Virus record (IMG/VR): IMGVR_UViG_3300032677_000061
Location: 1 to 42,134 of that record
Direction: 5' to 3' (one strand)
DNA from: a virus
DNA length: 42,134 bases
Shown: positions 1-31,106 of the stretch, in pieces
Layout: each line of letters begins with the position of its first letter
Numbering within the stretch: the stretch's first letter is position 1
Notes under the pieces: model-generated
What the model was told of the DNA's origin: nothing
Seen by the model: only the letters and a program-made list of their open reading frames with translations
The model's database searches: none
Made by a program: the position numbers and the translations under genes

Positions 1-1
1 T

Positions 2-103
2 GACACCGCAACAGACAGTCAATTGATGCCTTTGGCCCTTATGGCCCTAGCAGGCTTGGGCTTGTTCTTCGCAGGCGTTAACGGCTTGACAACCCGTAAG
101 TAA
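2..103 (+). CDS. C-terminal end of a membrane-anchored protein (partial)
   Basis: The frame is open from the first bases of the window and stops with TAA at 101-103, so only the last 33 residues are visible. They contain a hydrophobic stretch of about 17 residues (PLALMALAGLGLFFAGV), then polar residues and a basic TTRK tail. This is the pattern of a C-terminal membrane anchor. Its end overlaps the consensus promoter of the next gene (86-114). The function cannot be assigned. That it is coding is inferred only from the open frame and the hydrophobic pattern. Confidence 0.45.
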   Translation, partial: DTATDSQLMPLALMALAGLGLFFAGVNGLTTRK

Positions 104-114
104 GACAGTATAAT
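86..114 (+). promoter_or_regulatory. Consensus sigma70 promoter (early)
   Basis: TTGACA at 86-91, a 17-base spacer and TATAAT at 109-114 make a perfect textbook sigma70 promoter. It lies inside the last codons of the upstream gene, 31 bases before the start at 146. This is the signature of an early phage promoter read by unmodified host polymerase. Confidence 0.85.
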
Positions 115-145
115 AACTACTTCAACAACACAATAGGAGCGAACT

Positions 146-466
146 ATGGTAACAGCAGAACAGATTCAAGCAGGTTTTGTACTAGCACATCTCGCAGGCG
201 TTGAGATGTATCAAAAGATTGGCGAGCGTGATGCATGCGGTTTTGGTTGGGTTGATGTCTATGTGGACAGAACCAATTCCAAGCAGGCCAAGGAGCTGAT
301 CAAGGCAGGCTTCCGCAAGGACTACAAACCCAAATGCTTGAGCTACTGGGATCCTGCAAAGATTCCTACACAGAGCATTTCAGTCAAAGAAGCAGGTGCA
401 GAGGCATTAGCAACCTATCTGCAGAGCTTGGGTCTAAAGGCCTACGCAGGCAGTAGATTAGATTAA
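146..466 (+). CDS. Hypothetical protein, 106 aa
   Basis: The family is not recognised. The start is set by an AGGAGCGA ribosome site at 135-142, and the -10 hexamer of a consensus promoter lies about 30 bases upstream. The product is soluble with a balanced composition. It has an aromatic-rich middle (CGFGWVDVYVD near residues 31-41) and alternating basic and acidic residues; no membrane segment or catalytic motif is evident. It is the first complete gene of a rightward early cluster with the AAA ATPase. This cluster is visibly more GC-rich than the leftward genes further on. The ribosome site is fully complementary over eight bases to a motif repeated in the candidate small RNA at 1441-1577. 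Confidence 0.75.
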   Translation: MVTAEQIQAGFVLAHLAGVEMYQKIGERDACGFGWVDVYVDRTNSKQAKELIKAGFRKDYKPKCLSYWDPAKIPTQSISVKEAGAEALATYLQSLGLKAYAGSRLD

Positions 467-474
467 GTCGATCA

Positions 475-499
475 AAGGGCCTTGCACAACAGGGCCCTT
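475..499 (+). terminator. Hairpin between the 106-aa gene and the AAA ATPase
   Basis: AAGGGCC (475-481) pairs with GGCCCTT (493-499) around an 11-base loop. No T-run follows, so this may be a weak terminator or an RNA-stabilising stem rather than a true intrinsic terminator. The -35 element of the next promoter (482-487) lies in the loop. Confidence 0.4.
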
Positions 500-510
500 G
501 AGTGTATAAT
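482..510 (+). promoter_or_regulatory. Sigma70-like promoter of the AAA ATPase gene
   Basis: TTGCAC at 482-487, a 17-base spacer and TATAAT at 505-510. The bases around the -10 read AGTGTATAAT. The same core occurs before the helicase gp41 gene and, as AGTGTATACT, before the gene starting at 26260. Confidence 0.65.
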
Positions 511-537
511 TAATTTTTCAACACCAAAGGAGCGACA

Positions 538-1431
538 ATGGTACATGTAGTTAAAACGAGCAAGATGATGATGGCCCTACAGAAACAACCCAAAGGCACT
601 ATTGCCAGCCTAGAACAAGAGGCAGTTAAGAAAGATATTTCGAATGAAACAGACGAAGAGATCCTAGATCGCTTGCGTACTCGTTTTGGCATCTTAGATG
701 ACATGACTCGTGCAGTCAAGCGGGGCGATGTTCGTGCTATGATTGTGACAGGCCCTCCAGGTGTAGGCAAGAGCTTTGGAGTTGAAAAGGTCCTCAGCAA
801 GCATGATGTCATGGCTGATATTGCACAAGACAGCAAGCTGAAGAAGTATGAGATCGTTAAGGGTGCTATGAGTGCTATTGGACTCTACAGCAAGCTCTAC
901 AACTACAGCGACAAGAAGTGTATTCTAGTGTTTGATGACTGTGACTCAGTCTTGTTAGATGACTTGAGTCTTAACATTCTCAAGGCCGCGTTGGATACCA
1001 GCAAGCGTCGTATGATCCACTGGAATACTGACAGCAGGCTCCTGCGTAGTGAAGGTGTGCCCAACAGCTTTGAATTCAAAGGCGGTGCTATCTTTATTAC
1101 CAACATCAAGTTCGATCACGTGAAGAGCAAGAAGCTACAGGATCACTTGGAAGCATTGGAAAGCCGTTGCCACTACTTGGACCTTACTATCGACACAGAG
1201 CGTGAGAAGGTACTTAGAATCAAGCAGGTAGTAACAGAGCATGGCATGTTAGACAGCTATGACTTATCGGATGAAGCCAAGCTGGATGTAGTCAACTTCG
1301 TAGACGAGTACAAGGCTCGTATGCGTGAGCTGAGCCTGCGTACAGTACTTAAGGTAGCAGACTTGCGTGTCAGCTTTCCAGACACATGGCGGGCAGTAGC
1401 AGAGGTTACATGTATGCGTGGTAGCCGCTAA
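538..1431 (+). CDS. AAA-family ATPase, 297 aa
   Basis: A single AAA+ module. Walker A is GPPGVGKS at residues 72-79 and Walker B is ILVFDD at 129-134. A sensor-1-like Asn sits in IFITN (about 185-189), and a candidate arginine finger, R210, lies in ESRCH. The length suits a one-domain ATPase working as an oligomeric ring, although the substrate is not evident. Unannotated AAA ATPases of this size are common in T4-like phages of aquatic hosts. The start follows an AGGAGCGA ribosome site (528-535), the same unusual site as the gene before it. The gene is followed by the candidate small RNA and a strong terminator. The ATPase fold is secure; the role is unknown. Confidence 0.9.
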   Translation: MVHVVKTSKMMMALQKQPKGTIASLEQEAVKKDISNETDEEILDRLRTRFGILDDMTRAVKRGDVRAMIVTGPPGVGKSFGVEKVLSKHDVMADIAQDSKLKKYEIVKGAMSAIGLYSKLYNYSDKKCILVFDDCDSVLLDDLSLNILKAALDTSKRRMIHWNTDSRLLRSEGVPNSFEFKGGAIFITNIKFDHVKSKKLQDHLEALESRCHYLDLTIDTEREKVLRIKQVVTEHGMLDSYDLSDEAKLDVVNFVDEYKARMRELSLRTVLKVADLRVSFPDTWRAVAEVTCMRGSR

Positions 1432-1440
1432 GGGCTAGCA

Positions 1441-1577
1441 TACAGTAAGGCCGGGGCACTACTATACTAGAACAGCTCCGGCAGACAGACGCCGATGTGA
1501 TTCGCTCCCACTAGGCAGTCAGTTGGTCCCCAACATGATAAATCCGATTCGCTCCCGGTCATGTTGGGGATTTTTTT
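1441..1577 (+). ncRNA. Candidate small regulatory RNA with two anti-Shine-Dalgarno motifs
   Basis: Downstream of the ATPase stop the RNA would fold an 8-bp stem, GCCGGGGC (1450-1457) with GCTCCGGC (1475-1482, one G-U pair). A strong terminator hairpin follows. The 11-mer GATTCGCTCCC occurs twice, at 1499-1509 (single-stranded between the stems) and at 1546-1556 (in the terminator loop). Its TTCGCTCC core is the exact complement of GGAGCGAA, the ribosome site at 136-143, and matches seven bases of the site at 529-535. A 3'-UTR-derived or separately transcribed RNA that blocks translation of both genes is the simplest reading, but it is an inference. A weak TATACT at 1463-1468 has no good -35 partner. 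Confidence 0.45.
1527..1577 (+). terminator. Strong intrinsic terminator with a 20-base loop
   Basis: TCCCCAACATGA (1527-1538) pairs perfectly with TCATGTTGGGGA (1559-1570), followed by seven T. The 20-base loop is large for a terminator and carries the second GATTCGCTCCC copy. It ends the rightward early cluster. Confidence 0.9.
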
Positions 1578-1698
1578 GGCTCAAGGTCGGCGGTGTGATG
1601 AAGAAGAATTTGACCAGGGCGGGGCATATATATACAAAATGATTTATTAACTAGCTAAACTGCATGGGTACCGAAGTATTTTCACCCCTCTAAAACTA

Positions 1699-1759
1699 TA
1701 AGTACTTCTTTTAAATTTTTCGCGAGCCTAGTTTTTTTGGACTGTAGGACCCATTTGGC
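1699..1759. repeat. Diverged direct repeat, copy A (about 60 bp)
   Basis: It shares ordered blocks with copy B at 2422-2480: TAAGTACT, AAATTTTTCGC, TTTTTTTG, CTGTAGGACCCATT and GGC, with short variable spacers. Copy A covers the last codons and downstream flank of the leftward 142-aa gene. Confidence 0.7.
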
Positions 1760-2156
1760 GACGGCGTTCTAGCCACTCTTGCTCATTGCTGTTTAAGTCT
1801 GTGCTCCATCCTGCTAGACTTAAGAACGGTACTCCAATTCTACTGGCAAATGTGCTTAGTCCTGTCCAGAAGTTCGCCGCACCATATGTATTTACGGCAT
1901 ATTTGAGTACCTTGTTTTGCTCAGGTGTTAGGTATGGTTTAAGTTCGGGAGCCATAGTTATTGCGCCTGCTAGTATAGCGGCTCGCCAATCGCCCTTGGC
2001 CAGATACTTGAGTATGTTTATATTAATAGGAGACATTTTTGCCAGTGGTTTTGCCGGTGGTTTTGCCAGTGGTTTTGCCGGTGGTTGTGCCGCTTTGTCA
2101 ATAGCATTGTCTATAGCTCTAACATCAGCTTGTTGTGCAAATTCTCGTAAACGCAT
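1728..2156 (-). CDS. Hypothetical protein with (PAKPLAK) repeats, 142 aa
   Basis: No family is recognised. After a charged N-terminus (MRLREFAQQ) there is a Pro/Ala/Lys linker of repeated PAKPLAK units at about residues 25-40. A largely helical, mildly hydrophobic domain with Trp and Gly-Ala stretches follows. The start at 2156 was chosen because the late-promoter octamer GATAAATA lies four bases before this ATG, as at several other genes here. A longer reading from TTG at 2228 would run through a hairpin terminator (2176-2195) and is unlikely. The last codons lie in repeat copy A. A late-expressed small virion or packaging accessory is possible but unproven. Confidence 0.65.
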   Translation of the reverse strand: MRLREFAQQADVRAIDNAIDKAAQPPAKPLAKPPAKPLAKMSPININILKYLAKGDWRAAILAGAITMAPELKPYLTPEQNKVLKYAVNTYGAANFWTGLSTFASRIGVPFLSLAGWSTDLNSNEQEWLERRRQMGPTVQKN

Positions 2157-2160
2157 AAGA

Positions 2161-2168
2161 TATTTATC
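2161..2168 (-). promoter_or_regulatory. T4-type late promoter, leaderless spacing
   Basis: GATAAATA on the minus strand, seven of eight matches to the T4 late box TATAAATA, then TCTT and the ATG at 2156. Transcription would begin at or next to the start codon. Confidence 0.7.
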
Positions 2169-2171
2169 ATG

Positions 2172-2195
2172 AAAAGGCCCTCTCTCAGAAGGGCC
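2172..2195 (-). terminator. Hairpin terminator after the 24-aa micropeptide gene
   Basis: On the minus strand GGCCCT, an eight-base loop and AGGGCC are followed by TTTT. It separates the micropeptide transcript from the late promoter of the 142-aa gene. Confidence 0.55.
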
Positions 2196-2246
2196 AGGGT
2201 TGCGGGCATGTCCCGTATAGAATTTCAACAGTGATTGTTCAACACC

Positions 2247-2321
2247 CTAGTTTGGTGGATTCTCACTGTGCATTAACTTGGTTTGAGGCTTGTGATCTAA
2301 GTATCGTGATGTCATATACAT
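2247..2321 (-). CDS. Micropeptide, 24 aa
   Basis: A 24-codon frame, starting MYMTSRYLDHK and ending SENPPN, is preceded by a strong ribosome site, AAGGAGG, six bases before the ATG. It has its own signals: a late-promoter-like AGTAAATA 38 bases upstream (2360-2367), a short CACAG/CTGTG stem in the leader and a terminator hairpin downstream. This complete transcription unit is why such a short frame is reported. The peptide is polar and contains His, Lys and Arg; no family is recognised. An alternative start is the third codon, also ATG. Confidence 0.5.
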   Translation of the reverse strand: MYMTSRYLDHKPQTKLMHSENPPN

Positions 2322-2359
2322 AAAACCTCCTTAAACACAGTTCAAGTTCTGTGCACAAG

Positions 2360-2367
2360 TATTTACT
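2360..2367 (-). promoter_or_regulatory. Late-promoter-like box of the micropeptide gene
   Basis: AGTAAATA on the minus strand, six of eight to TATAAATA, located 38 bases before the ATG at 2321. It leaves room for a leader carrying the AAGGAGG site. Confidence 0.45.
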
Positions 2368-2421
2368 AGATTACTAAAAGATTACATGAAAATAGGCTAA
2401 TTTTAGTCTCAGTAAAAACGC

Positions 2422-2480
2422 TAAGTACTGGACAAAATTTTTCGCACACAATTTTTTTGATCCTGTAGGACCCATTCGGC
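2422..2480. repeat. Diverged direct repeat, copy B (about 60 bp)
   Basis: Partner of copy A (1699-1759), with the same blocks in the same order. Here it lies immediately upstream of the rightward gene at 2491. On the minus strand one frame reads WVLQDQKN; the matching frame in copy A reads WVLQSKK. A duplicated gene fragment is therefore possible. Confidence 0.7.
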
Positions 2481-2490
2481 TATATACACT

Positions 2491-2694
2491 ATGGATACAC
2501 ATGTTGTCATTTCCCGAATCATAACCGCTATAATGAGTCTCTTAGACAGTGCCAATCTGCGTAATCGTGTCTACACGCAACAACAGCGTATAGAACAGTT
2601 AGAATTGGCCTTGGAAGATATAGATCGTATTAACACTAATAACGCACATGCTCAGCACTTGATCGCTGGCATTGTTGCTAGAACTCGCCAATAG
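2491..2694 (+). CDS. Small coiled-coil protein, 67 aa
   Basis: A short hydrophobic N-terminal helix is followed by a heptad-like stretch (QQRIEQLELALEDIDRI) typical of a coiled coil. No family is recognised. There is no Shine-Dalgarno sequence; a TATATA-rich box (GCTATATA) ends four bases before the ATG, like the leaderless genes on the other strand but a poorer match. The stop codon abuts the stop of the leftward 391-aa gene (2695), giving a tidy tail-to-tail junction that supports the frame being real. Small coiled-coil proteins of this kind in phages can be spanin-like or regulatory; nothing here decides. Confidence 0.5.
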   Translation: MDTHVVISRIITAIMSLLDSANLRNRVYTQQQRIEQLELALEDIDRINTNNAHAQHLIAGIVARTRQ

Positions 2695-3870
2695 TTACAT
2701 CTGCTTATTACGGCTACCAGTATCTGCCCAATTACCAGCGCCTGAATCAAATCCTATAGTTTGTCCAATGTGTTCTTTCTTTGGCTGATTTTGGCTTCTA
2801 ATTCTAGCCAACTCTGCATCTTCACCTTGGTTTAATCCTGAAGTGTATGTGGCCATAAAGAATGCCAGTGCCGCTGGACTTGTTGCTATCGTCCACAACT
2901 GTTCTAAATCACTGGCTATACTGGCTCCCCATTTGACCATGGGTAAATTGGCATATTCACCAGCTTTTTGCAATACTGTAATAGCGGCAGAGGGCAGTTG
3001 TCCCTTGGCAGCTTCTACAGCCAAACGACTTATTGTAGGACCAAACTGACTCCAGTTGAATCCCAAACCTTCCACAATTGACTGCATGTCTGCATGTTCG
3101 TCCAGCTCATGAGCATCAAACACTATGACATCATCGCCATTGACATCTTCATGGTGTACTAGCTGTATTTGATCCGATCCATCTTCCACTTCACTAATAC
3201 CCCATCCCATGCGATCCAGTGTGTGTTCTATGGCTTGTTGCACATGATCACTGCCTTGATACCACATGCGAGCCAGCTTTTTAAACTGATCGTAATCGTC
3301 ATCTCCGGGTGTTACAGCAAATTCTTGTAGACTTTCACAGTGCCATTTACGTAGACTCTTGTTTATACGACTGTTGGGATCATGAGCTGTTTTACCACTG
3401 GTATTGTGCTTTTTCATACCCGTCATACGAGCACAGAAACTGGCACGTCGTTTGGCATCTTTTGAACCTTTCTTTAATTTACTGGGCTTGGTAGTTACAG
3501 CAGTTTGTAACTTTGATCCAGGATGTTCTTTGCGATAGCTGGCAACACCTTTCTTGTTAAGGCCGCCATTTTTGTTCTTGCCTGAGCTCTTTTGCCATGC
3601 GGCTGTTTCCATTATACGTTGATCCTGTGCTCGTTCTGCACCCATGCCCATGTCTTGATTGTCAACATAGTTTTCTTCTGTGGGCACACAGTTGGGCACA
3701 GTGGCACCACCTTTCTTTTTGGTACCCACAGGATGATAGCCCTTCCAGCAGGGGTTGTTGCCGCGTAGGCTCTTCCGCTTTTCAGCTAGGGTGCGGGCTT
3801 GTTCTTCTATGGTCCATATACGGTACAAGAAGTCTTCCATTATGATTGAATCTAGGCTTTTTTTCGTCAT
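2695..3870 (-). CDS. Putative virion-associated protein with DUF6321-like domain, 391 aa
   Basis: Three regions are visible. Residues 35-65 carry the pattern NPCWKGYHPVGTKKK, a Gly-Gly turn and VPNCVP, a cysteine-containing motif seen in many marine phage proteins. Residues of roughly 100-180 (GGLNKKGVASYRKEHPGSK ... RASFCARMTGM ... LRKWHC) match the DUF6321 pattern. The C-terminal third is helical and partly hydrophobic and contains EDAELARI, similar to the ends of other candidate head proteins here. There is no ribosome site; AATAAATA ends four bases before the ATG, so the mRNA is predicted to be leaderless and late. The late promoter and the lysine-rich middle suit a packaged, DNA-associated head protein, but that role is inferred. 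Confidence 0.75.
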   Translation of the reverse strand: MTKKSLDSIIMEDFLYRIWTIEEQARTLAEKRKSLRGNNPCWKGYHPVGTKKKGGATVPNCVPTEENYVDNQDMGMGAERAQDQRIMETAAWQKSSGKNKNGGLNKKGVASYRKEHPGSKLQTAVTTKPSKLKKGSKDAKRRASFCARMTGMKKHNTSGKTAHDPNSRINKSLRKWHCESLQEFAVTPGDDDYDQFKKLARMWYQGSDHVQQAIEHTLDRMGWGISEVEDGSDQIQLVHHEDVNGDDVIVFDAHELDEHADMQSIVEGLGFNWSQFGPTISRLAVEAAKGQLPSAAITVLQKAGEYANLPMVKWGASIASDLEQLWTIATSPAALAFFMATYTSGLNQGEDAELARIRSQNQPKKEHIGQTIGFDSGAGNWADTGSRNKQM

Positions 3871-3874
3871 ACTG

Positions 3875-3882
3875 TATTTATT
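3875..3882 (-). promoter_or_regulatory. T4-type late promoter, leaderless spacing
   Basis: AATAAATA on the minus strand (seven of eight to TATAAATA), then CAGT and the ATG at 3870. Confidence 0.7.
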
Positions 3883-3900
3883 CGTACAGGGCTACAGCTA

Positions 3901-3996
3901 GCAGAACTTGCGTTGTCCGCTACGCTTCGCGTAGGCTACTGGAAATTTTTCCGCTTTCAGCTTCGCCGATAAAATTTTCTGCCGGGCCTGATGGCC
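3901..3996. repeat. Palindrome-dense divergent intergenic region
   Basis: Between the divergent starts at 3870 (minus) and 4011 (plus) there are several short inverted repeats. CTACGC-TTC-GCGTAG (3920-3934) is a tight 6-bp hairpin, GGAAATTTTTCC is near-palindromic, GGCC-TGAT-GGCC forms another stem, and GCAGAA (3901-3906) mirrors TTCTGC (3977-3982). No coding frame is convincing here. It may be a transcription insulator, a protein-binding site or a small mobile hairpin element. Confidence 0.5.
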
Positions 3997-3997
3997 T

Positions 3998-4005
3998 GCT
4001 AAATA
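3998..4005 (+). promoter_or_regulatory. Late-promoter-like box, leaderless spacing
   Basis: GCTAAATA (six of eight to TATAAATA) ends five bases before the ATG at 4011. The geometry matches the minus-strand leaderless late genes. Confidence 0.5.
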
Positions 4006-15798: not shown

Positions 15799-15825
15799 AT
15801 TATACACTTTAATTAAACACTTTAA
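15799..15825 (-). promoter_or_regulatory. Early/middle promoter of gp41 with paired TTAAAGTG boxes
   Basis: The minus strand has TATAAT (15804-15799) five bases before the ATG, with no recognisable -35. Instead TTAAAGTG occurs twice at a 13-base spacing (15805-15812 and 15818-15825) directly upstream. This resembles an activator-dependent phage middle promoter, but the box is not the T4 MotA sequence. Confidence 0.5.
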
Positions 15826-17278
15826 CACCGTAATGGCGTTCAAAGCTCTTTGCATCTGCATGATCATTCACCATAGGTTTACCCTTAATGTTTAAACTGG
15901 TATTAAGTAACATCGGGCATCCAGTTCGAGCATACCATAGCTCTAAGAGTTTTCTGAACGGCGATCCATCGTTTGGAACAGTTTGTACACGTGAACTTCC
16001 ATCACGATGCACGACAGCAGGATAAAGCTCAGGATTCCGTAAACGGGCGATGACTTGCATATACCTACTATTATGCCAATTACGAGGCATAGTAAAATAC
16101 TCATCAACAAACTCCTCGAGTATTGCTGGAGCAAACGGTCTGAATTGTTGTCGTTGTTTGATTGCATTTACCTTATCCTTTATATCTATATCGCGGGGAT
16201 CCGCTAATAAACTTCTATTACCTAACGCTCTTGGACCAAATTCTGCACGTCCTCGAGCAACACCGCATATTTTATTAATTTCTAAATAATCGACAATTTG
16301 TTCATTAGTTGCACGATAACCCATGTTATAACCTAAGAACGGATCAAACTCGTCAGGTGACATTCGCCATTCTGGATGTTTGGCTAGTACAGCGCCTACC
16401 GCACTTCCAGCATCACCTGGATTTGGCATTATCCAGGTATTATCAAAATAGTTTCCTGTTAGTCTATTAGCAAGGCAATTTAACGCACAACCACCCATTA
16501 AGACTAAATTTTTACTATTGACTAGCCTTGTTGCTTTTATCAATAAATGCTCGAAGTATTCTTCGTATATGTCTTGAGTGGTGGCCGCAATCTCAAAACT
16601 ATCTTTAACGGTTAAGTCAGGACGCCAATCCATTACACCTCTATGACAACTACGTAAAAATTTTAAGTTGCCATAATTGTCTATAAAATCGTGACTCATG
16701 TCAAAATTTAACTTGCCAGGATCACCATATGCGGCCATGCCCATTAAGATATATTCATCTTCCTTAGGCTTTAATCCTACACGTTGAGTCATGGCACTAT
16801 AGAATAATCCGATACTATGTGGGTAACGTAAACTCCATCTCTTTTTAAGTTTGTTACCTTTTGCTTCCCATATTGTAGCAGTATCCCACTCGCCGATAGC
16901 GTCTATAACTACTACACATGCTTCATCGAATCCGCTGGTAAAATATCCACCAGCCGCATGACTAAGATGATGGTCGACATAAGTTATAGGTGCATTGATC
17001 TCGTAACGAGCCATGTAAATTTCAATATCATTGTCTCGACCTTTCCAACCTTGACCAGCATAAAATTGTCTTAAAGTCTTAAGAAATGGGCGTTCATACC
17101 AATAAACTTGGTCAGGAGCTCCGTATTGTTTTGCGGCCATAACCAAATCACGACATAAATCTTTATCGTTTTTTATACCGCTAAATCGTTCGCTGTGACT
17201 AGCAAACACTAATTTTTCATCACAGAATACCGCTATTGCGGCATCGTGACTATTTGCAGAAATTCCCCAACTAATCAT
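15809..17278 (-). CDS. Carbamoyltransferase, NodU/TobZ family, 489 aa
   Basis: It transfers a carbamoyl group, in relatives from carbamoyl phosphate through a carbamoyl-adenylate, to a hydroxyl of a small molecule or sugar. Visible motifs are the N-terminal ASKHA/Kae1-like strand (WGISANSHDAAIAVF), metal-binding DHHLSHA at residues 102-108, VVIDAIGEWDT, the LMGGCALNCLANRL segment and the C-terminal ARGRAEFGPRALGNRSLLAD signature. The length is slightly under the usual 540-600. The start at 17278 overlaps the primase stop by eight bases (ATGATTAG), so translation is coupled to gp61. Such enzymes are known in several aquatic T4-like phages; the acceptor here is unknown. Confidence 0.9.
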   Translation of the reverse strand: MISWGISANSHDAAIAVFCDEKLVFASHSERFSGIKNDKDLCRDLVMAAKQYGAPDQVYWYERPFLKTLRQFYAGQGWKGRDNDIEIYMARYEINAPITYVDHHLSHAAGGYFTSGFDEACVVVIDAIGEWDTATIWEAKGNKLKKRWSLRYPHSIGLFYSAMTQRVGLKPKEDEYILMGMAAYGDPGKLNFDMSHDFIDNYGNLKFLRSCHRGVMDWRPDLTVKDSFEIAATTQDIYEEYFEHLLIKATRLVNSKNLVLMGGCALNCLANRLTGNYFDNTWIMPNPGDAGSAVGAVLAKHPEWRMSPDEFDPFLGYNMGYRATNEQIVDYLEINKICGVARGRAEFGPRALGNRSLLADPRDIDIKDKVNAIKQRQQFRPFAPAILEEFVDEYFTMPRNWHNSRYMQVIARLRNPELYPAVVHRDGSSRVQTVPNDGSPFRKLLELWYARTGCPMLLNTSLNIKGKPMVNDHADAKSFERHYGVKVFN

Positions 17279-18239
17279 GTTTAAACCACTTTTTTGCTTT
17301 GAGTTGTATTTTAAGATTGTTAGACTCTTTAGAACTAACAATCAACCACATCGTAGCTAGTTTACCTAGTTTAATCACAGCATCATTGATATCTTTAATG
17401 CCTTCGGGCCAATCAGGCATGCTTACTGACCAATTATATTCAAGTGCTTGTTCTAGTGTTGCTTTACCAGCTTCGTCCCTATCTGGTACTAAAATTATTT
17501 CTTTACCTAGCTGTCTTAGTAGCCAATTTTGGCTGTCTTTGATCTCTGCTCCGAGCAATGCACAACCATCAATACTTAGTGCATCAAACGGGCCTTCGCT
17601 AACAATTATGAATTCTCGATCATTGTGTTGGTTGTCTAAATTAAACACATATCCAGGTTGTTGCTCTGACAAATATTTAGGTTGTGCATCGTTGACTGCA
17701 CGGGCAGTCCAGCCTACAATTTCTCCTTTGTATAAAAAAGGAATAATTAACCTGTTACTAAAACCAACTTTTGGAGTCCAATAGAAAAGAAAATCTTCAG
17801 GAAAAAGTCGTCTACTTACCATGTATTCTAATACAGGTATAAGTTTTTCTGGAGGGTTAGATAATAAGTCTGTAATCGCAATACTATCCATGGGCAATGC
17901 ACGGATATCAAATTTAGGAATTATATTACGAACTTCTGCGGTATTATTTTGATCTAAGCGTAATGCTTCCAATCTCATCTGCGAAATGATATCATCGGGG
18001 ATATTTAGATCCCGCATGAACTCATTCATTTTTTTGCTTATGTGTCTACCAGGTTGCCAACTGCATTTAAATCCGCAATTAAAACAATGATAACTTACAG
18101 CATCGCCTTGATTAACAATAAATCCGCCACGCTGTCGTTTATCATCACAACATACCGCGTTGAACCCAATCCAACCACTTGGAGTATGTTTACGCTTTGC
18201 AGGCAGGTATGTAAGTAATGTATCCGCTATTAGGCTCAT
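17271..18239 (-). CDS. 61: DNA primase, gp61-like, 322 aa
   Basis: It makes RNA primers for lagging-strand synthesis with gp41. The N-terminal zinc-binding region has CC at residues 30-31 and YHCFNCGFKC at 50-59. The Toprim domain has EGPFDAL at 215-221, with the catalytic glutamate, and DRDEAG at 253-258, with the metal-binding aspartates. The length is close to the 342 aa of T4 gp61. A TATAAT ends five bases before the ATG, again a leaderless arrangement; the AAGG just before the ATG is too close to act as a normal ribosome site. It overlaps the carbamoyltransferase gene downstream. Confidence 0.93.
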   Translation of the reverse strand: MSLIADTLLTYLPAKRKHTPSGWIGFNAVCCDDKRQRGGFIVNQGDAVSYHCFNCGFKCSWQPGRHISKKMNEFMRDLNIPDDIISQMRLEALRLDQNNTAEVRNIIPKFDIRALPMDSIAITDLLSNPPEKLIPVLEYMVSRRLFPEDFLFYWTPKVGFSNRLIIPFLYKGEIVGWTARAVNDAQPKYLSEQQPGYVFNLDNQHNDREFIIVSEGPFDALSIDGCALLGAEIKDSQNWLLRQLGKEIILVPDRDEAGKATLEQALEYNWSVSMPDWPEGIKDINDAVIKLGKLATMWLIVSSKESNNLKIQLKAKKWFKHD

Positions 18240-29307: not shown

Positions 29308-30300
29308 TTATCTGTGATGTACTAAACTTACCAAACGTTGTAATTCGTCAAATCCAACTGACTCTTGTACATCTTTTGTGAGTGGATTGAGTTGCGGTTT
29401 AGGTGGAACTAGACTATACGGATTAGGCTGAGTTGCGTTTGAATTATCAGCGGCCGATGGAGTTTGCTGTCCAAGACTCATTGTATTAGTATTTGGCATC
29501 TTCAATCCAGTACCATTACTAGCATTAGGACTTAATGCATCTAACGCACGGATATCAACTTTTGTCCCATTATTGACATTCCACCATAAGAATTTAGTTG
29601 TCTGTGGTGTGCCTGCTTTTAAATCTTTCAAAGCCTTATCTAATTCTGGAGCGTACTGTGGAATCCAATCGCTTGGCATAATTTTAGGTTGATTACTAGA
29701 TGAATCCATATACTTGATCATACCATCTTTGCTGTCAATATATGCCGGAGCTGTAGTGTTATCAACGAATTTTTTAGCAGTTTCTTTTGCACCAGCATCC
29801 TGATCAACTACAGGTTCAGGTGTTGCGTTTGCCGCTTGGGCTGATGAATTAGATTGTCCTGTAGTTGCCGCCTGGGCTGATGAATTAGGAAATTGCTTGT
29901 TTAATTGGTCACTACTATCCTGTGTTCGTTTTCCGATATCCTGTGCAACACCCTTGGCATCCATAATACTTTTAACTTGAGGAATTGTATCAGCATATTT
30001 TTTAGCAATTTCTATATATTTCGGATCGCTGAATACTACACCAGCAGTTTCATTTCCCCATATACCGTCTGCACCATACTTTGGAAAAATCTTGTTATCG
30101 CCGCTAGCTTTGACGATTTCATCTTGTAGAGCCTTAACATTAGGATTTTTTGGACCAGTTTTTTTCTTTGGAGCAGTATTATTCGAATTAGGGTTGTCAA
30201 TTACAACTTTACTAGGATCGATAGGATCGTTATTTGTAACAACCTTCGTTGGATCTATCTCTTCTTCAAACAAATTTATTAAAGTACGTAAGGAGTTCAT
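29308..30300 (-). CDS. Putative head/internal protein with PG-binding-like domain, 330 aa
   Basis: The start at 30300 (MNSLRTLINLFEEE) gives a TAATG overlap with the previous gene; an in-frame ATG 15 bases upstream is less likely. Residues of about 52-90 (NPNVKALQDEIVKASGDNK, YGADGIWGNETAGVV) match the peptidoglycan_binding_1 pattern, a repeat that can bind cell-wall material. The rest is low-complexity Asn/Ser/Ala/Pro/Gln. The C-terminus, QESVGFDELQRLVSLVHHR, resembles the ends of the 753-aa and 427-aa proteins. It is a virion-associated protein by context; a wall-binding or lytic-accessory role is inferred from the domain only. Confidence 0.7.
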   Translation of the reverse strand: MNSLRTLINLFEEEIDPTKVVTNNDPIDPSKVVIDNPNSNNTAPKKKTGPKNPNVKALQDEIVKASGDNKIFPKYGADGIWGNETAGVVFSDPKYIEIAKKYADTIPQVKSIMDAKGVAQDIGKRTQDSSDQLNKQFPNSSAQAATTGQSNSSAQAANATPEPVVDQDAGAKETAKKFVDNTTAPAYIDSKDGMIKYMDSSSNQPKIMPSDWIPQYAPELDKALKDLKAGTPQTTKFLWWNVNNGTKVDIRALDALSPNASNGTGLKMPNTNTMSLGQQTPSAADNSNATQPNPYSLVPPKPQLNPLTKDVQESVGFDELQRLVSLVHHR

Positions 30301-31106
30301 TATGCATACTCCCATTTACCGCCTTTGAATACAACTTTTTTACCGTTGTAAGTGCCAGTTGTTCCTTCTGCAGGTGTATTCTGCTGTTGAGTATTCTGTT
30401 GTTGATTCTGCTGAGTATTCTGTTGTTGATTCTGCTGAGTATTCTGCTGTTGATTATTTTGCTGTTGATTATTTTGCTGTTGATTATTTTGCTGTTGATT
30501 ATTTTGCTGTTGATTATTTTGCTGTTGATTCTGTTGTTGATTCTGTTGTTGATTCTGTTGTTGACCTTTTACAGGCATCGGTTTACCTAGTAACTCCCAT
30601 GTTTTTACATGTGCTTTATTATCAGGATCCCAACCGCGATTTGGTTTTGTTCCAGTCATTGCCATATGTTTTAGAGCTTGCATTTCAATTTTATTTTTTA
30701 CAGTGCGATCCTTGGCTACATTTCCATCATCTGCTATCCAGTCGCCATTCTCATTTTTTGCCATCTGATGACCAAATTTAGCATAGCCTAATTCGTTCCA
30801 ATCTGGTGGGAATGTATAACCTAATGTTCCATTTACATCTTTAAACTTATCATTATTACCATAATTTAAATTAGTACCAAATACGTTATCTAAGGCAGAC
30901 GGACCTCTATGCCATGCACGAGCAACGTTTTGTTGCCAGTCATTTCTTTCCCATGGGGTAGCAGAAGCATCATTGCTTCTGTCGCCACCGCTAAAAGATC
31001 CACTATTTTGTCCGTATGGATCAAAATCATCATCTTGACCTTCTCTTAATCTAGCTCGTAAATTAAGGGCTGATTCGATTAATTGTTGTTCTGTGATTTT
31101 TTTCAT
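30300..31106 (-). CDS. Gln/Asn-rich low-complexity protein, 268 aa
   Basis: Residues 1-22 (MKKITEQQLIESALNLRARL) resemble a capsid-targeting N-terminus, with LIE-S as a possible prohead protease site. Residues 45-175 have a conserved-looking, aromatic-containing region (TPWERNDWQQNVARAWHRG, RGWDPDNKAHVKTWELLG). Residues 181-244 are a pure Q/N/T tract of QQQN, NQQQN and TQQ units, prion-like in composition. A short beta segment, NGKKVVFKGGKWEYA, ends it. There is no known family. It sits between the 753-aa and 330-aa genes with tight overlaps, and its ribosome site AGGA is next to the previous stop. Confidence 0.7.
   Translation of the reverse strand: MKKITEQQLIESALNLRARLREGQDDDFDPYGQNSGSFSGGDRSNDASATPWERNDWQQNVARAWHRGPSALDNVFGTNLNYGNNDKFKDVNGTLGYTFPPDWNELGYAKFGHQMAKNENGDWIADDGNVAKDRTVKNKIEMQALKHMAMTGTKPNRGWDPDNKAHVKTWELLGKPMPVKGQQQNQQQNQQQNQQQNNQQQNNQQQNNQQQNNQQQNNQQQNTQQNQQQNTQQNQQQNTQQQNTPAEGTTGTYNGKKVVFKGGKWEYA
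30375..30563 (-). repeat. Gln/Asn-encoding tandem repeat (12-15 bp units)
   Basis: On the plus strand the 15-mer TTATTTTGCTGTTGA recurs about five times in tandem, flanked by related 12-bp and 24-bp units. The whole stays in frame and encodes a Q/N tract. The high identity suggests length variation by slippage between isolates. Confidence 0.9.

Follow-up and report, generated by a model that had tools for sequence, protein, structure and literature searches.

Why would a phage repeat the same 11-mer in a short stretch behind one of its genes, and what could such a repeat act upon? The window, meaning the whole stretch of DNA analysed here, is a virus record of 42,134 bases in the IMG/VR collection. 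Its terminase is T4-like (51% identity to the Pseudomonas PA5oct group), as are its replication genes by eye, and a megablast of positions 1-4000 found no close cultured relatives. At the left end, a sigma-70-like promoter (86-114, + strand; TTGACA-17-TATAAT, 12/12 consensus matches) precedes a gene for 106 aa (146-466, +; PHROG 22149, function not assigned) with the Shine-Dalgarno sequence GGAGCGAA (136-143, +). Next come a promoter-like site (483-510, +; TGCACA-16-TATAAT, 10/12 matches), the Shine-Dalgarno sequence GGAGCGA (529-535, +) and an AAA-ATPase gene for 297 aa (538-1431, +; PHROG 1250, related to phage nrdC.10). The AAA protein is less than 60% identical to every match in the phage collection, the best reaching 45% in the PA5oct/Paride group; at the one spot of PA5oct that was examined, 43 nt separate its AAA gene from the next gene start.

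Downstream of the AAA stop (1431), GATTCGCTCCC occurs at 1499-1509 and at 1546-1556 and, allowing up to one mismatch on both strands, nowhere else in the window, where 0.12 occurrences are expected and none of 100 shuffles held two. An earlier note on this DNA had described the repeat as lying in a structured, non-coding stretch that ends in a strong terminator, and we recover both features. The predicted fold begins with a 5’ hairpin without the motif (1450-1482, +; stem GCCGGGGC/GCUCCGGC), continues with a hairpin that displays the anti-Shine-Dalgarno (anti-SD) loop AUUCGCUCC at 1500-1508 (1488-1520, +), and closes with an intrinsic terminator that displays the same loop at 1547-1555 and runs into T residues at 1571-1577 (1525-1577, +). 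Something resembling the 5’ hairpin is present by eye in relatives L003, L004 and L007 and absent in L005 and L006. In both motif hairpins the first G of the 11-mer is predicted to pair with its last C, closing a 9-nt loop. The first copy, which the note took to be single-stranded, is thus predicted instead to form the loop of a separate hairpin (GUG-AUUCGCUCC-CAC), so that both copies are presented alike; the second copy does lie in the 20-base terminator loop described, but a predicted CCG/CGG pairing inside that loop again leaves only nine bases open.

The sequence also bears out the proposed complementarity to the ribosome sites of both upstream genes: TTCGCTCC is perfectly complementary to GGAGCGAA at 136-143, matched by the eight loop bases UUCGCUCC, and TCGCTCC is the complement of GGAGCGA at 529-535 over seven bases. 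Calculated duplexes with the loop reach -13.1 and -12.3 kcal/mol at the two sites, versus -6.5 and -7.9 kcal/mol with an assumed 16S tail sequence, used throughout. Eight base pairs have little steric room in a 9-nt loop unless the inner pairs open. The fold of 1432-1580 as a whole is mildly unusual (z of -2.2; 6 of 200 shuffles equally stable), with z-scores of -1.6 for the first motif hairpin and -3.8 for the terminator hairpin, and the strong evidence for a putative RNA element is comparative rather than a matter of fold stability.

Contigs encoding relatives of the AAA protein supply this comparison. Among the 80 that were fetched (the best 80 of 102), many of which are near copies of each other, the exact 11-mer lies just 3’ of the AAA gene in 80/80, which rules out a chance repeat, and 77/80 have at least two copies with no more than one mismatch. 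The number of copies per RNA varies from one to five, and a search for the spaced pair (two copies 20-50 bases apart) found matches in 50 viral contigs. In the window, as in most relatives with GGAGCG sites (by eye), the RNA comes directly after a coding gene and has a terminator at its 3’ end. We also considered a bacterial version, since rejected: 39 bacterial or archaeal genome stretches match the pair pattern, with a tblastn match to the AAA protein in none. Five of these were read in sequence (L154, L155, L160, L177 and L179) and are intergenic or tandem-repeat-like, L179 being pentapeptide-repeat-like coding sequence, and the other 34 were judged solely by having no AAA match and no stems of more than 2 bp beside the motif. 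The carriers are apparently a group of large, uncultured phages.

Base pairing around the motif is conserved even as the stems change. We collected 166 distinct exact copies of the 11-mer, 62 in terminator-type and 104 in upstream-type hairpins. In the terminator type, flanking positions -1:+1 and -2:+2 are each paired in 62/62, and -4:+3 in 56/62 through every Watson-Crick combination (G-C 26, A-T 24, C-G 4, T-A 2); most carry a bulged pyrimidine between the paired flank positions, and pairing at the bulged position is at chance level. In the upstream type, -1:+1 is paired in 90/104. These flank-pairing values were reached by 0 of 2000 shuffles, and minimum-energy folds pair the G and C of the 11-mer and close the loop in 117/166 cases compared with 34/830 for shuffled flanks. 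Two loci (L118 and L132) have three perfect hairpins each, with quite different stems and an identical loop. Judged by these counts, the loop is under selection and what is needed of the stem is mainly that it be a stem. As a separate observation by eye, the first hairpin of L018, L050-L052, L055, L056, L064 and L073 has AGTA ... GAA in the stem below the loop, a form that we take to resemble the loop E or sarcin-ricin internal loop, while other loci have CCAAC ... GGYAA there; both elements may be stiffening modules under the loop.

If the loop exists to pair with the ribosome site, phages with another site should carry another loop, and the earlier note had proposed looking for such covariation. 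More distant AAA relatives (the best 80 of at least 528 and the best 80 of at least 599) include a sister group in which the ribosome site is mostly GAGGGCA, with variants AGGGGCA and GAGGGA. Here, too, hairpins follow the AAA gene, with loops such as TGTGCCCTCG, TAGCCCTCA and CCGCCCTCA that carry GCCCTC, present in one to five copies in 30 loci, in 14 of which five T in a row stand no more than 60 nt from the last motif. For a uniform count we tabulated the ribosome site of the AAA gene together with 350 nt on the 3’ side of that gene in 174 distinct loci, having left out 58 of 232 entries (45 duplicates over the gene's first 300 nt, 11 startless or short, one with its site off the contig and one with less than 150 nt downstream). 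Loci with a GGAGCG site had CGCTCC(C) in 67 cases, GCCCTC in none and neither in 15; those with an AGGGC-like site had CGCTCC(C) in none, GCCCTC in 20 and neither in 24; and those with other sites had five, eight and 35, respectively. Loop and site thus match in 67 and 20 loci with none crossed (Fisher 4e-20, with descent ignored). GCCCTC loci outside the AGGGC class include GAGGGA sites in L305, L307 and L358, and the 24 AGGGC-like loci lacking GCCCTC mostly belong to a group with AAAGGGCAC-like AAA sites and no such RNA at that place.

Loss of the motif from relatives that keep the GGAGCGA site would speak against the proposed RNA, and among the 82 distinct GGAGCG loci no such loss was seen: beyond the 67 with the motif within 350 nt, 13 have the 11-mer 771-853 nt past the AAA stop, and in the remaining two the contig ends 774 and 694 nt after the stop. 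Cruder or stricter counts give a less even picture. Widening the count to 3 kb on the upstream side and 1.4 kb on the downstream side yields four crossed loci, three of which also hold the CGCTCC motif, the fourth being the GAGGGA locus L307, which has just one GGAGCG site. When a hairpin must have at least four consecutive pairs to be accepted, 45 GGAGCG-site loci are left without one; the 11-mer lies no more than 1.4 kb away in 33 of them and is absent from that range in the other 12.

The two codes occupy separate parts of a tree built from 102 AAA proteins, and few loop-state changes are needed, so the swap represents a small number of evolutionary events rather than 87 independent ones; the change counts may be too high, as the label N mixes rows below the strict motif or tied (L238, L252, L299) with a contig-end row (L230). 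Mean calculated duplexes of the loop with its own group's sites are -12.5 and -14.6 kcal/mol (69 and 16 sites in the two groups), against -6.6 and -5.8 kcal/mol with the other group's loop and -7.8 and -6.9 kcal/mol with the 16S tail. As far as these comparisons can tell, both partners, loop and site, changed between the groups, and we read the whole as a system that extends across the phage group and comprises two or more matched codes.

How many genes does the mark reach? The AAA gene itself has a GGAGCG site in 71 of the best 80 of 102 relatives. The nine in which none is shown comprise two with an unresolved start (L019, L059), one at a contig end (L057), two with the start picked at a non-SD site (L053, L054), three with AAGGAACAC (L029, L030, L035) and one with GGAGCA (L058). 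Across 14 long records in which GGAGCG followed by ATG was counted (the site listings exclude G003, G012 and part of G007), the reversed pattern occurs 0-5 times per strand. Wherever a listed contig is uncut at the RNA, the sites concentrate in the ~10 kb adjoining it, with roughly 7 to 20 marked starts beside the RNA; they lie mostly upstream, with G014 and L114 having them on either side of the RNA and L100 having most of them downstream. Contigs G001, G009 and G010 end near the RNA, and larger records have additional scattered GGAGCG sites. Judged from these site maps, the regulon exceeds the two genes of the window.

The mark is concentrated in the cluster and at ribosome sites. At GGAG-ATG starts in two records, CG follows GGAG in 14/23 and 19/34 cases inside the cluster versus 1/50 and 4/59 outside (33/57 against 5/109 in total); 24/57 cluster starts lack CG, which counts against the regulon as read here, and by eye unmarked genes often overlap or abut the preceding gene. 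Over five clusters, 72 of 80 sense GGAGCG occurrences stand before an ATG and none of nine antisense ones does. A sigma-70-like promoter (at least 10/12 consensus matches, within 85 nt of the start) precedes 62/72 marked starts versus 4/44 other SD-ATG starts in the same clusters of five relatives, and 2/72 shuffled segments. Conversely, 13/16 and 17/26 sense promoters in two clusters lead to a GGAGCG start, versus 0/66 and 0/78 elsewhere. The gene with the mark at its ribosome site thus tends to come first in a host-promoter transcript, and by analogy with T4 the marked cluster genes would be early genes. The sister group behaves alike, with GAGGGC before ATG in 174/200 sense versus 8/102 antisense occurrences (29 loci) and promoters at 141/170 marked versus 53/300 other starts.

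Outside the mark, the leaders are divergent: of the 20 positions before it, only the adjacent one has a base above 70% (72 sites), and the spacing to the ATG varies from 3 to 8. The last C of the 11-mer faces an A in 66/72 targets and GGAGCG alone is common to them, so that 6-8 of the 11 bases pair; some records, such as G014, show little pairing beyond GGAGCG.

The loop is thus more constant than pairing requires, as would be expected of a binding site for a phage or host protein that recognizes the hairpins in the way the MS2 coat protein recognizes its operator; the RNA would then titrate the protein or protect a 3’ end, and its complementarity would be secondary. Constant loops on varied stems are compatible with such a site, as are the non-canonical internal loops (AGTA/GAA forms, by eye) in some upstream hairpins. 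A protein site does not predict, however, that the loop in another group is the complement of that group's different ribosome site, nor that complements concentrate at the ribosome sites of one cluster, and we consider this explanation improbable. An anti-SD RNA that acts on the marked genes by pairing accounts for both observations and is, in our judgement, probably the correct reading of these sequences.

Where would such an RNA come from? A search for sigma-70-like promoters (at least 10/12 matches, within 105 nt) before the RNA found none in 83/85 loci, which leaves read-through or processing as its source. In the two exceptions, L099 and L109, a TTGACA-17-TATACT promoter stands before the RNA itself; these records have few GGAGCG-ATG sites (2 and 1, respectively). 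In L100 and L114 (the latter by eye), the RNA lies 3’ of another, small winged-helix-like gene inside the cluster. The L100 gene (2505-2777) matches Pfam HTH_39, and by eye a small winged-helix-like gene also stands before the RNA in L216-L253, where the AAA gene is not its direct neighbour.

This arrangement could also suggest that the pairing is real and confined to cis, the RNA serving locally as an attenuator or a stability element, inside a single long early mRNA or between overlapping transcripts; the general lack of a nearby promoter and the position behind the stop codon in AAA loci would both fit. Against it stand the marked genes' own promoters (62/72), by virtue of which many targets can sit on other transcripts, the separately promoted RNAs of L099 and L109, for all their few GGAGCG-ATG sites, and the RNAs behind a different cluster gene in L100 and L114. 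Purely local action accordingly seems to us about as improbable as a protein site.

For an RNA pairing with the marked sites in trans, we propose the following course. Transcription of most marked cluster genes would begin at a host-type sigma-70 promoter, and these genes would have a private Shine-Dalgarno sequence, GGAGCG here. The RNA would arise as the 3’ part of the transcript of the AAA gene (or its cluster), ending as a small RNA with two anti-SD hairpins, each of which would expose a loop complementary to the ribosome sites that the phage itself uses for its early genes. The accumulating RNA would pair through these loops with marked sites and exclude the 30S subunit, switching off early translation as a group while the largely unmarked genes outside the cluster continue; the outcome would be a delayed shut-off without a protein, at the early-to-late turn. 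Sequence comparison supports the conserved hairpins and loop, their complementarity to the sites, the concentration in a cluster, the association with promoters and the way in which loop and mark differ together; the earlier note's proposal of a 3’-UTR anti-SD RNA acting on the upstream genes is in this way upheld for pairing and position. We infer that the RNA is made and stable, that it acts in trans and at the early-to-late turn, and that the cluster is early, the repressive direction and the timing being the weaker parts of the reading.

Mobile promoter/stem-loop cassettes exist in T4-type phages, and the GGAGCG leaders might be copies of one such early-promoter cassette, alike by descent, with the hairpins as ordinary terminators bearing chance complements. 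Promoter, leader and ribosome site do come as a unit; the leaders are nevertheless otherwise divergent with an ATG spacing of 3 to 8, the loops stay constant on diverged stems, and the sister group differs on both sides jointly. The loop swap makes a cassette unlikely, and we give this explanation very little credence. Equally hard to credit is a helper RNA that opens leaders or shields early mRNAs from nucleases: some small RNAs do activate translation, yet the pairing here would cover the ribosome site proper, at a distance of 3 to 8 bases from the ATG, and by calculation the loop binds it more tightly than the 16S tail does.

Among the systems compared, the closest in mechanism to the proposed anti-SD RNA is NfeR1 of rhizobia. 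NfeR1 has three hairpins, and both it and its alpha-r14 family show the same ultraconserved unpaired anti-SD motif in several hairpins with strongly different stems; the loops act redundantly on translation initiation regions (PMC10746234). The phage RNA likewise has several hairpins with an identical anti-SD loop motif on diverging stems. NfeR1 is, however, a bacterial RNA with the motif CCUCCUCCC and targets in metabolism and transport (PMC10746234), whereas the RNA described here is phage-coded, has loops of AUUCGCUCC or loops bearing GCCCUC, is fitted to the private ribosome site of an adjacent gene set, and differs in motif between groups together with that site. Because of the different motif and because Rfam gave no match, we place it outside the alpha-r14/NfeR1 family. 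Rfam returned no match at the curated threshold in the whole window, only sub-threshold RybB and TCV_H4 scores at 1400-1620, and only a tRNA in five related loci, and a known RNA family was rejected on this basis. In lying behind a coding gene, ending in a terminator and having no promoter of its own (83/85 loci), the RNA is like 3’-UTR-derived sRNAs.

The early genes of T4 are shut off by proteins, of which RegA is one. Closest in role is another, the T4 endoribonuclease RegB, which inactivates early mRNAs at GGAG in Shine-Dalgarno sequences (PMC3014915). Both are phage devices aimed at the Shine-Dalgarno of early mRNAs; unlike the RNA, RegB is a protein nuclease. Pfam models of RegB and RegA each matched 0/10 long records of the group, which may be incomplete, with T4 positive and PA5oct negative for both as controls. 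Other small regulatory RNAs of phages, such as OOP, VpdS, PreS and 24B_1, are, in the parts of a review considered here, antisense or Hfq-linked and mostly from temperate phages; none of them is described there as bearing a series of anti-SD loops that match a regulon of the phage, and Shine-Dalgarno is mentioned once, for the host RNA FnrS (PMC12197685). The open-licence PMC literature on phage anti-SD small RNAs, as searched here, yielded no published counterpart of a bar-coded early regulon.

If true, the proposed mechanism would be an RNA solution to early shut-off, reaching many genes at once through one private Shine-Dalgarno mark where T4 uses proteins. It would also explain the use of GGAGCG or GAGGGC despite their weaker pairing with the standard 16S tail compared with the full consensus. 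That mark and loop differ together between groups amounts to a natural compensatory experiment, making the mechanism directly testable with simple reporters, and two natural mark-key pairs with little calculated cross-reaction could serve gene circuits. More tentatively, the ribosome site may be a phage-specific password, in which each group's early genes carry a bar code and the RNA is its key; the key would also silence the early genes of a second, incoming phage that shares the code, making the RNA both a timer and a means of self-recognizing superinfection exclusion, and it is this silencing that would drive codes apart. We regard this extension as possible but doubtful; if true, further codes should exist.

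Several atypical loci bear on how many codes there are. In L029, L030 and L035, the RNA is kept while the AAA gene is unmarked (AAGGAACAC); a AAGGAACAC code was rejected, as AGGAACA-ATG has 24 scattered matches in five records versus 13 for the reversed pattern. A third code, AAAGGGCAC with GTGCCC, was likewise dropped: the 10-bp hairpin with a GTGCCC loop is identical in five loci, and its stretch reads as coding sequence, which we take to be DNA-ligase-like. L278 (AGGAGCCTAGACAA) has the Shine-Dalgarno sequence AGGAGCCTAGACAATG and, in the 3’ UTR, TTGTCTAGCTCCT, one base short of the full complement, with one exact GGAGCCTAG in its contig; it and L215, where a second terminator hairpin has the loop CTAGGCTCC, are candidates for further codes. 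L214, with two perfect hairpins bearing TCGCTCC loops yet mostly GGAGCA ribosome sites, fits the matched-code scheme weakly.

The full complement of the 11-mer, GGGAGCGAATC, occurs at genes away from the cluster in four records (L137 ~2280, -; L138 ~2263; L143 ~3167, -; L140 ~2413), in three of them shortly before a start codon. All four have TAAATA upstream, presumably a late-promoter-like element, and the genes that bear GGGAGCGAATC are possible strong targets or RNA sponges.

Elsewhere in the window, a carbamoyltransferase gene with both Pfam domains (15809-17341, -) sits, by eye, between primase-like and replicative-helicase-like genes, and three separate genes belong to the 2OG-Fe(II) oxygenase family (PF13759; 3846-4610, +; 21869-22456, -; 22453-23091, -). 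The second half of the protein encoded at 30300-31106 (-) contains a long repeat rich in glutamine and asparagine (QQQN).
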